DNA of 64,000 nucleotides from Bifidobacterium breve (lineage in GTDB: Bacteria; Actinomycetota; Acidimicrobiia; Acidimicrobiales; Acidimicrobilacustridaceae). The position numbers and the translations under genes are program-made. This document shows, in pieces, positions 4,833 to 27,209 of this stretch (the first letter of the stretch is position 1; the number at the start of each line of letters is the position of its first letter). The notes under the pieces are model-generated. The model had not been told where the DNA came from and searched no databases. It saw nothing but the letters and a program-made list of their open reading frames with translations. The DNA lies in contig CAMAQM010000003.1 of the NCBI GenBank assembly GCA_945860545.1, positions 1 through 64,000 on the forward strand, in the 5' to 3' direction.

Positions 4833-5602
4833 CCGGCGTCGAGCAGTCCCCAGACGCCAAGGGACCCCAGGCCCGTGTGGATGCCGCCAGGGTCGAGGTT
4901 CAGATTCCCGACGGCCACGAACGCGGTGAGGTCATGTCGCCCACCCAACGGGTCTTCTACCGACTGGTGCGCTCCGTCGTCGTGTTCATCGCCCGGACCT
5001 ATTTCAGGGTGAAGGTCACCGGGGCGCACAACGTCCCCGACACTGGCCCGTTCATCCTGTCCCCAATCCACCGCTCCAACCTCGACACACCGGTCGTGGC
5101 GGCGGTCACCAGGCGGCGAATGCGCTACATGGGTAAGGAGTCGCTGTGGAAGACACGGTTCGGCGGATGGTTCTTCACCACCGCTGGCGGGTTCCCCGTG
5201 CAGCGGGGCAGCGCTGATCGTGACGCCCTGCGAGCGGGGCGCGAGGTACTTGACCGCGGCGAACCGCTCGTGTTGTTCCCCGAGGGCACCCGGCAGTTCG
5301 GCCCGAAGGTGCAGCCGTTGTTTCAGGGTGCGGCGTACCTCGCCTGCCGCACTGGAGCGCCCATCGTCCCCGTTGGCATCGGCGGCTCTGAAGCGGCGAT
5401 GCCCAAAGGGTCGAAGATGGTGTACCCGAAGCGATTGACGATCGTCGTGGGCGCCCCCATCTACCCACCGGACCCGGGCCCCTCAGGTCGGGTGCCGCGG
5501 CGGGCGGTGAGTGACATGACCGAGGAGCTCGCCACCGCAATCCAGCGCCTCTTCGACGAGGCGCAGCAACTCGCCGGCACCCCGAACACCCCGCCGGCCT
5601 GA
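4829..5602 (+). CDS. plsC: 1-acyl-sn-glycerol-3-phosphate acyltransferase (PlsC family)
   Basis: The protein is predicted to acylate lysophosphatidic acid to phosphatidic acid at the membrane. The catalytic HX4D motif is HRSNLD at residues 81-86, and FPEGTR at 150-155 is the glycerol-phosphate binding motif. The first 35 residues are a polar extension ahead of the usual start, and an internal ATG at 4934 would remove it. The GTG start overlaps the cmk stop. PlsC-like proteins beside cmk, ispH and der are common in actinobacteria, so the location supports the call, although acyl-acceptor specificity cannot be read from sequence. Confidence 0.9.
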   Translation: MTGVEQSPDAKGPQARVDAARVEVQIPDGHERGEVMSPTQRVFYRLVRSVVVFIARTYFRVKVTGAHNVPDTGPFILSPIHRSNLDTPVVAAVTRRRMRYMGKESLWKTRFGGWFFTTAGGFPVQRGSADRDALRAGREVLDRGEPLVLFPEGTRQFGPKVQPLFQGAAYLACRTGAPIVPVGIGGSEAAMPKGSKMVYPKRLTIVVGAPIYPPDPGPSGRVPRRAVSDMTEELATAIQRLFDEAQQLAGTPNTPPA

Positions 5603-25506: not shown

Positions 25507-25526
25507 GCGTGCCCCTGCCCTGCCCC

Positions 25527-25699
25527 CGCTGTCGGTGGACCTGAGAGCTTCACCCCGCCTCGCAGCGGCGTTTTCTCCTTCGGTGGGTGATGCGTGCATC
25601 ACCACTCTCCAGCGTTGCCTGCACCTGCGGTACGGGGGCCTGAGAGTTTCCGGGGCGGTTGCTCCTTCGGCGACCGACGTCGTCGGTCTCTCCCGCAGG
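25527..25699 (-). promoter_or_regulatory. tandem glycine riboswitch controlling gcvP
   Basis: Read on the minus strand, two glycine aptamers follow each other. Aptamer 1 (about 25699-25624) has GCGGGAGAGACC, GCCGAAGGAGCAA and AAACTCTCAGGCCCC. Aptamer 2 (about 25614-25527) has GGAGAGTGGTG, CACCGAAGGAGAAAA and AAGCTCTCAGGTCCAC, closed by CGCTG/CAGCG. GAGAG, CCGAAGGAG and CTCTCAGG are the diagnostic conserved blocks. The spacing of about 10 bases between aptamers is normal. The riboswitch lies 50 bases before gcvP and should switch on glycine degradation when glycine is high. Confidence 0.95.
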
Positions 25700-25726
25700 T
25701 GGTGGCTGGCGTCGGTTGTGTCTTGC

Positions 25727-25732: not shown

Positions 25733-25817
25733 GCGAACGGATCGGACCAAGGGGTGGTTCGAAGGCATCGCCGCGCGTGGGTGCGCAGTGTGGTTAGATG
25801 CGAGCGACATATCAGAT

Positions 25818-25912
25818 CTCTCCGTCGGGGGAAGCCGGTCAGAAGCCGGCGCTGTCCCGCAGCCGTGGGTCGGGCCTTCGTGGTCCGACGAGTCGGAATG
25901 CCCGCCGGAGAG
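25818..25912 (+). promoter_or_regulatory. cobalamin (B12) riboswitch
   Basis: CTCTCCG (25818-25824) pairs with CGGAGAG (25906-25912) as a closing helix. Inside lie the conserved blocks GGGGAAGCCGGTCAGAAGCCGG, written here as positions 25827-25848, then GCTGTCCCGCAGCCGT (25850-25865) and the B12-box AGTCGGAATGCCCGCC (25891-25906). These match the class of cobalamin riboswitch found upstream of B12 synthesis and uptake genes. It lies on the plus strand 125 bases before the ATG of the secreted barrel protein and nothing else is downstream, so that gene is predicted to be repressed by cobalamin. Confidence 0.93.
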
Positions 25913-25985
25913 GTGTGGCTCATTGAAGCACCGTCGTGGACAACGGGCTGAGCCTGCGGACATCGGGCGGGGTCGTGTGCGTGCA

Positions 25986-26030
25986 CACCTCTCGACCCGG
26001 GGTTCTCCGGCCCACCCACCGAGAGGAGAA
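25986..26030 (+). promoter_or_regulatory. expression platform of the B12 riboswitch, sequestering the ribosome site
   Basis: CCTCTCG (25988-25994) is complementary to CGAGAGG (26020-26026), which contains the Shine-Dalgarno of the next gene. TTCTCC (26003-26008) can alternatively pair GGAGAA (26025-26030). Also GAGAGGTG (25908-25915) on the aptamer edge is complementary to CACCTCTC (25986-25993), so the aptamer can compete for the anti-Shine-Dalgarno strand. This is a plausible translational switch. Confidence 0.6.
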
Positions 26031-26036
26031 CCCATC

Positions 26037-27209
26037 ATGAAAGTCCGTACATCTGTCCGTCTCGTCGCCTCCCTTGTTGCGCTGGCGTCGCTGCTGCTCG
26101 GAGCAGGGCTGGCCCCCGTTCCAGCAGGCGCCCAAGGATCCCAGCCACCCGATTCGGTGGTGCTCGGTGCCCGATGGTTGGCGAGCCAGCTCACGCCTGA
26201 GGGATACGTCGAGGGGTTGTTCGCTCCGGGGCCCGACCCCGATGCGACCCGGGACGTGGCGTTCACCCTCGCGGCGACCGGCCTCGAACAGGAGTCGTTC
26301 GGTGTCGCTATCGGGTGGATCAAGACCAACATCGAGGAGGTGATCGCCCCGGGTGACGAGCCCGACGGCGCCGGCACGCTCGGTGTGCTCATCATGATTG
26401 CCGTCGCCGTGGGGGACGACCCGCGGAACTTCGGTGGCGTCGACCTCATCGTGCGTCTCGAGGCGACCCTCGGGCAGTACGAGGCGGGCCTGTACGGTGA
26501 GGCGGATCCGACCTTTGACGGGGTGCTCCGACAGTCCCTCGCACTGCTCGGTCTGGATTCGGCCGGAGTCACTCCTGCGGCCAGCGCCGTGACCTGGCTG
26601 AACGGCCAGCAGTGCGGTCTGGGGCGCCCGACGGCCCCCGCATCCGAGGGGGGCTTCCAGAACTACTCGCCACCCAACACCGCCTGCGGTGAGCCCAATG
26701 CATCGACCTACAGCGGAGCGGAGACCGACGCCACCGCCGTCGCGCTCTCGTACTACGCCGGGGTCGACGACCAGGGACGCAGCGACGACGCCGCTGCGTT
26801 CCTCCGTTCGTCGCAATCACCAGGTGGGGGATTCCCCTGGTACGTCGGCGATGTCGACAGCCCCAACTCCACCGCTCTTGCCATCATGGGACTGTTCACC
26901 GCCGGGGGAGAAGAGTCATTCGACGCGGGCCTTGCGGCAATCGCGTGGTTGGAGGACCAGCAGTTGGGATGCGACTCCCCTGACGCCGGAGCGTTCACGA
27001 GTTCCTACAGCGACGGGGCGGCAGACCAGTTCGCCACCCGGCAGGCCGTGCTCGGGGTCGCCGGTGTGACCCTCCCGCTCAACAACACCGGGTGGAGCGC
27101 CAGCGGTGACCCCTGCGAACAGCCTGATCCGGGTCCTGGTCCCGGACCCGGGCCGGCACCGTCGCCGACACCGATCAGCACTCCGACAACTCCGAAGTTC
27201 ACCGGCTGA
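26037..27209 (+). CDS. secreted alpha/alpha-barrel protein, B12-regulated, transcobalamin-like
   Basis: A 390-residue exported protein. Residues 1-32 are a signal peptide (KVRTSVRLV, hydrophobic core, cleavage near PAGA-QG). Residues about 40-365 are helical repeats of the prenyltransferase/squalene-oxidase kind: ARWLASQL, WLNGQQCGLG with GGFQNY, AFLRSSQSPGGGFPWY and WLEDQQLGCDSP. The eukaryotic B12 carriers intrinsic factor and transcobalamin have the same alpha6/alpha6 barrel. Four cysteines could form disulfides. The tail is Pro/Gly/Thr-rich, ending PKFTG, with no membrane anchor. A cobalamin riboswitch precedes it, so a role in capturing corrinoid outside the cell is my inference. Relatives with other ligands are possible. 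Confidence 0.8.
   Translation: MKVRTSVRLVASLVALASLLLGAGLAPVPAGAQGSQPPDSVVLGARWLASQLTPEGYVEGLFAPGPDPDATRDVAFTLAATGLEQESFGVAIGWIKTNIEEVIAPGDEPDGAGTLGVLIMIAVAVGDDPRNFGGVDLIVRLEATLGQYEAGLYGEADPTFDGVLRQSLALLGLDSAGVTPAASAVTWLNGQQCGLGRPTAPASEGGFQNYSPPNTACGEPNASTYSGAETDATAVALSYYAGVDDQGRSDDAAAFLRSSQSPGGGFPWYVGDVDSPNSTALAIMGLFTAGGEESFDAGLAAIAWLEDQQLGCDSPDAGAFTSSYSDGAADQFATRQAVLGVAGVTLPLNNTGWSASGDPCEQPDPGPGPGPGPAPSPTPISTPTTPKFTG

Follow-up and report, generated by a model that had tools for sequence, protein, structure and literature searches.

The vertebrate B12 carriers transcobalamin, intrinsic factor and haptocorrin are secreted proteins in which an alpha/alpha-toroid is combined with a beta domain, and their partner is CD320 or cubilin. 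In Bacteroides, extracellular capture of corrinoids falls to BtuG and BtuH, riboswitch-controlled surface B12 binders that serve the outer-membrane protein BtuB. Two further families, SCO2321 and SCO2322 (NCBIfam NF053823 and NF040672), have names derived from locus tags and no assigned function. Import of the ECF type has been described in the B12 auxotroph Lactobacillus delbrueckii, where B12 is caught by the S-component CbrT and where cobinamide served as competitor when uptake was assayed (PMC5997447). The literature that we searched, which covered few subscription papers or preprints, gave no account of the B12 import route proposed below or of the families that would take part in it.

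The window analysed here is a stretch of 64,000 nucleotides from a genome (G000) whose assembly of 2.14 Mb is 89.6% complete, and the locus of interest comprises the following features:

25806–25923, forward strand: cobalamin (B12) riboswitch aptamer, RF00174 (Rfam 44.5 bits, E 6.5e-8)
26000–26033, forward strand: putative expression platform, a perfect 9-bp hairpin of GGGTTCTCC (26000–26008) and GGAGAACCC (26025–26033) in the minimum-energy fold of the leader
26037–27209, forward strand: exported alpha-subunit gene, SCO2321-like, 390 aa (P0001); an open frame with a Shine-Dalgarno sequence, a match to NF053823 (E 3e-44) and homologues across Actinomycetota
26037–26135, forward strand: probable Sec signal peptide MKVRTSVRLVASLVALASLLLGAGLAPVPAGAQG, positioned by inspection
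26139–27092, forward strand: alpha/alpha-toroid domain in the AlphaFold2 model (pLDDT 94.3, pTM 0.91), with PDB toroid matches at Z about 25
27114–27191, forward strand: Pro/Gly/Thr-rich low-complexity tail, read from the sequence
27192–27209, forward strand: C-terminal P-K-F-T-G-stop motif, a candidate sorting tag judged from DNA pattern counts in the genome
27251–27691, forward strand: small ORF of 146 codons with a CxxC-type cysteine pattern (CxxC...CRQGCRQ), starting 41 nt 3′ of the alpha gene

This gene probably codes for one half, alpha, of a two-part corrinoid receptor that resembles transcobalamin, is held at the surface and feeds an ECF importer. The observations comprise riboswitches, gene content, predicted folds, a conserved association and natural fusions, and from them we infer the ligand, the assembly of the two parts, the hand-over of the corrinoid and the retention at the surface.

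A preliminary description of this DNA had placed a B12 riboswitch at 25818–25912, and the element is indeed present: the Rfam match at 25806–25923 exceeds the gathering score of 31.5 for RF00174, lies on the same strand as the alpha gene, ends 113 nt before its start codon and is the only cobalamin riboswitch above threshold in the whole assembly. A custom model, R1, built from 15 leaders of this B12 regulon and hence trained on that regulon, gives the same copy 93.6 bits at 25784–25923; because the training set included the window riboswitch, the independent test is that of Rfam. When the leader is folded to minimum energy, the 26000–26033 hairpin covers the Shine-Dalgarno sequence of the alpha gene, which suggests translational control, such that the hairpin would repress translation. 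The hairpin itself is seen in the sequence; as the folding z-scores of the leader are weak to modest (-1.05 and -2.03), a regulatory role for it is put forward here as a suggestion. Back to back with the B12 riboswitch, across a gap of about 100 nt, lies a tandem glycine riboswitch for gcvP on the reverse strand (25519–25705), and glycine riboswitches also adjoin the alpha gene in the relatives L004, L007 and L008.

The gene itself runs from an ATG at 26037, with a good Shine-Dalgarno sequence directly 5′, to a stop codon ending at 27209, and several features that had been read from its product are borne out. The signal peptide has a charged N-terminus, a hydrophobic core and a PAGA-Q junction, and the four cysteines fall at residues 193, 217, 312 and 360, of which Cys193 and Cys217 are conserved in 58 of 63 homologues. 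The proposed helical repeats, whose blocks include WLNGQQC and GGF, form an alpha/alpha toroid in an AlphaFold2 model built on the 63 homologues (the pLDDT of 94.3 being the mean), so the claim of an alpha/alpha barrel stands as a matter of fold. The idea of a single gene has fared less well: a riboswitch does precede the alpha gene, but it is not clear that the gene is a lone transcription unit, given that the same-strand ORF 41 nt downstream is kept beside it in relatives (L017, L022 and L028) and is possibly co-transcribed with it. That small ORF has no Pfam match.

What the toroid says about function is a separate matter. In a VIA-align comparison of the model with the PDB, squalene-hopene-type cyclases come out on top (Z about 25, rmsd about 3 Å over about 270 residues), and these cyclases are the nearest family by sequence profile as well, whereas bovine transcobalamin (2bb6) appears at Foldseek rank 37 (E 8.2e-5) and transcobalamin is absent from the best 50 VIA-align matches. 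The window protein has no sequence match to PF01122 or PF14478, and PF01122, the eukaryotic cobalamin-binding protein family, is matched by two of the 63 homologues, with a best E of 1.8e-4. The predicted alpha fold thus fits transcobalamin without pointing specifically there; it is a generic toroid, and since the cyclases outrank transcobalamin, the alpha fold alone is not used here as evidence for B12 binding. The same matches invite the reading that the protein is an extracellular enzyme, one that would use the toroid groove to convert bound or modified corrinoids, or some other substrate, to a transportable form, and the best sequence and fold matches do include enzymes (terpene cyclases, GH76 and epimerases). 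However, the class II cyclase motif DxDD is kept in only one of the 63 homologues, most of which have D-x-[DN]-[SAT]-T instead, and the window protein carries ETDA at the tested position. Its loss from the other 62 makes cyclase chemistry unlikely, and the protein further differs from the class II terpene cyclases, its closest relatives in fold and profile, in being secreted. Together with the fused beta domain and the transcobalamin matches described below, which fit binding over catalysis, this leaves the enzyme an improbable explanation.

Within its own family, the alpha protein scores 151.5 bits (E 3e-44) against NF053823, whose curated cut-off is 300 bits. It is homologous to the SCO2321 family without being an equivalog, and the matched stretches come in swapped order: residues 34–144 align with profile positions 246–354 and residues 149–352 with positions 33–231, so that the repeats are circularly permuted. 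A homologue from the Streptomyces group (L122) shows the opposite repeat order directly. Circular permutation of toroid repeats is of the kind that a closed toroid tolerates.

The window protein stops after the alpha domain, and the beta domain is found as a separate protein at another locus of the same genome. There, on contig C31 (locus L078), a second cobalamin riboswitch scores 29.9 bits with Rfam (E 2.4e-4), just below threshold, and 78.2 bits with R1, whose training also included that copy. Behind it lie, in order, genes for an SCO2322-like beta protein, EcfT, a double ATPase EcfA-A (present as an ABC ATPase ORF) and EcfS, such that one genome encodes the alpha protein together with EcfT, EcfA, an S-component and a B12 riboswitch. 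The beta protein, encoded at 5447–5887 of L078, has a C-terminal membrane helix and matches NF040672 (SCO2322) with E 3.5e-19, below the curated cut-off; EcfT matches Pfam CbiQ with E 5.5e-4, likewise below cut-off, and EcfS is 62% identical to that of L023. By sequence, the beta profile found no relevant PDB chain, and Pfam PF14478 (DUF4430) had no match in 15 genomes and none in 54 beta domains. The EcfS profile matched no PDB chain either, in a search whose scope included a relation to CbrT, and the specificity assigned to EcfS therefore rests on context.

The wider genome is in keeping with a need for imported corrinoids. Five B12-binding-domain matches, two of the methylmalonyl-CoA-mutase type, are present in G000, while CbiC, the B12 synthesis gene that was checked, was not found there; on this sequence evidence the organism can be pictured as one that uses B12 and has to import it. 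The lone FecCD match, at 31 bits (cut-off 26.5) against 230–314 bits for strong members in relatives, is read as a distant permease and not as part of a BtuCD-type importer, although the assembly, being 89.6% complete, may lack such a system that the genome has.

The association extends well beyond this genome. An SCO2322-like beta protein, EcfS and a cobalamin riboswitch are present in all 13 alpha-bearing genomes tested, and in four of these alpha, beta and the EcfT-A-S genes are adjacent; in L019, L023, L024 and L026 the alpha gene adjoins those for the SCO2322-like secreted protein, EcfT, the double ATPase and EcfS. In the family to which the window belongs (G000, G095, G127, G053, G155 and G180) the alpha gene instead stands apart from its partners, mostly beside gcvP. 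A broader set of 80 named loci, drawn from GTDB species by a scan with the EcfS alignment and thus EcfS-selected and not a random sample, spans Acidimicrobiia to Streptomyces, Amycolatopsis, Kribbella and Knoellia. In profile searches 41 of the 80 contained an alpha domain, and every one of the 41 also contained a beta domain. R1 matches in the named loci range from 95 to 49 bits, with the next match at only 17 bits, and many of the riboswitch loci are independently supported by Rfam itself. For 45 of the 50 alpha domains in this set, a same-strand B12 riboswitch lies no more than 1 kb upstream, a figure that is conditional on EcfS because of how the loci were selected; in two other samples the counts were 11 of 13 and 15 of 21. 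Several of the alpha domains without a near riboswitch have one where the operon begins (L019, L136 and L139) or sit in a locus cut by a contig end, and R1 also detects a B12 riboswitch in the Streptomyces-group locus L122. Homologues of the alpha gene are thus found near B12 riboswitches and beside EcfS, and the suggested link to B12 uptake and ECF transporters gains support from the C31 locus and from the association in 13 of 13 genomes.

Some loci have more elaborate arrangements. Four Amycolatopsis loci (L195, L198, L203 and L211) have two opposite-strand alpha genes, back-to-back B12 riboswitches and two beta copies, and in L133 (G379) five cobalamin riboswitch matches and two alpha-beta gene pairs lie within 14 kb.

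Which corrinoid the system would take up can be argued in more than one way. The same receptor and ECF transporter might be directed at a precursor or fragment such as cobinamide, cobyric acid or DMB and not at complete cobalamin, given that riboswitch control indicates merely that B12 status matters and that cobinamide was the competitor employed with CbrT (PMC5997447). However, CbiC, the gene checked, is missing from 11 of the 13 alpha-bearing genomes, G000 included, which implies that whole corrinoids must come from outside, and a precursor as the ligand is a possibility that we regard as doubtful.

The natural fusions are the strongest sequence evidence for alpha working with beta and with the S-component. 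The two domains share one open frame in the order alpha-beta in L132, L138, L160 and L180 and in the order beta-alpha in L185 and L218, and in L136 a 643-aa frame joins EcfS to alpha, with matches to ECF S-component families at residues 145–296 (E 9e-6 and 2.5e-5, just under the family cut-offs) and to toroid families at 457–587. In L138 the alpha-beta fusion is followed by repeats that, by inspection, resemble cell-wall-binding repeats.

The PDB chains that Foldseek places first to eighth against an AlphaFold2 model of the L180 fusion (24 sequences, pLDDT 86.6, pTM 0.79) are all transcobalamin or intrinsic factor (7qbg, 8ixu, 7qbe, 2pmv, 4zrp and 2v3n), with E values of 2e-8 to 6e-8 and alignments of 469–491 columns, a length that must include the beta domain. 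The TM-scores by model length are 0.33–0.37 and the rmsd is about 20 Å, low overall values that arise from the model setting its two domains in another relative position than transcobalamin does; chains of transcobalamin and intrinsic factor are absent from the best 50 VIA-align matches to L180, which are filled by alpha-only matches. The likeness of beta to the transcobalamin beta domain rests on this one fused model and is to be read as a prediction. The likeness to transcobalamin and intrinsic factor that had been proposed from the window sequence holds, then, in that fused relatives match both, but not in the sense that the alpha fold is diagnostic, squalene-hopene-type cyclases being the better match.

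The fusions also bear on a reading in which the protein is a B12-repressed surface protein unrelated to uptake that replaces a B12-dependent function. B12 riboswitches do control B12-independent isozymes, MetE and NrdAB among them, and the riboswitch of the alpha gene is itself observed. Such a role sits poorly with an alpha gene that is conserved next to ECF parts and beta and in places fused with them, the fusion to the S-component speaking strongly against it, and it is very unlikely.

It had been proposed that the carrier is released or displayed when B12 is scarce. The B12 link and the export agree with what is found, but the protein is only the alpha half, the beta half is separate and membrane-anchored, and the pair is probably held at the surface for an ECF importer. 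In relatives, the alpha domain is followed by an LPxTG-like motif and a membrane helix (L019, L023, L156 and L219; IPETG or LPATG plus helix in L019 and L023), by SLH repeats (L020), by other surface repeats (L024, L026 and L164) or by a membrane helix (L122), and it is from these anchors at the same end, or from fusion to an S-component, that surface retention of alpha appears probable. The window protein lacks the sortase LPxTG signal of motif, helix and positive tail; it ends ...TPKFTG with nothing after.

The tail had been described as one without an anchor, which is right insofar as it has no transmembrane helix, but it closes with a motif that is met repeatedly across genomes of this bacterial family and that reads P-[KRT]-[FY]-T-G-stop in the window protein and in most of its relatives within the family. 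The corresponding DNA pattern P-x-[FY]-T-G-stop has 15 copies in G000, against none for the reversed pattern, and 104 over six family genomes, against four; in G146, a genome from another family, it has none. Sampled tag-bearing proteins (loci L222–L251) mostly carry a signal for export and differ in their bodies, with linkers rich in Thr and Pro and no transmembrane segment after the tag, and NCBIfam holds no model for it. Going by these patterns, P-x-[FY]-T-G-stop is probably a surface-sorting or processing tag and a candidate new one, and its presence across the family casts doubt on simple release of the alpha protein.

A freely released carrier that works alone, a kind of bacterial intrinsic factor, would account for a secreted protein with a B12 riboswitch and no transmembrane helix, and for an alpha gene that, in this family of bacteria, lies away from the ECF genes. 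It would not account for the second riboswitch-preceded locus formed by beta and the ECF genes, for homologues with an LPxTG-like motif and helix, SLH or other surface repeats or an EcfS fusion, or for the family-wide tag at the alpha C-terminus, and we consider it unlikely.

The surface-held receptor can be envisioned to operate as follows. When B12 is scarce, the riboswitch would permit translation and export of alpha, while the C31 riboswitch would control the membrane-anchored beta protein together with EcfT, EcfA-A and EcfS. Alpha, presumably kept at the surface through its C-terminal tag, and beta may then close on a corrinoid held between them on the outside of the cell, much as the two domains of transcobalamin or intrinsic factor do, and would pass it to the EcfS of the ECF transporter.

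Set beside the described systems, this arrangement would share its domains, secretion and B12 link with the vertebrate carriers, but here alpha and beta have a gene and a locus each, beta has no PF14478 match, PF01122 is confined to the two alpha homologues mentioned, and the partner would be an ECF transporter in place of CD320 or cubilin. BtuG and BtuH offer a parallel in riboswitch-controlled extracellular capture of corrinoids, although their folds are unrelated and they serve BtuB. The window-genome proteins are clear homologues of the SCO2321 and SCO2322 families, yet lie below both curated cut-offs, with permuted repeats in the case of alpha. ECF-CbrT is likewise ECF-type import, but the S-component there catches B12, whereas here additional surface domains are present (PMC5997447).

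If the proposed explanation is true, it offers a testable answer to how Gram-positive and actinobacterial B12 users, much of a phylum and Streptomyces relatives included, capture corrinoids outside the cell, and the SCO2321 and SCO2322 families, at present named by locus tag only, would gain a function. For studying how two domains close on B12, the fusions and circular permutants would serve as ready-made constructs. Bacteria would then also have a relative of the B12 carriers of humans, and we see an even chance that the intrinsic factor and transcobalamin of vertebrates have counterparts, perhaps even ancestors, in Actinomycetota, here split in two, separately riboswitch-controlled, assembling around the corrinoid on the cell surface and feeding a dedicated ECF transporter.
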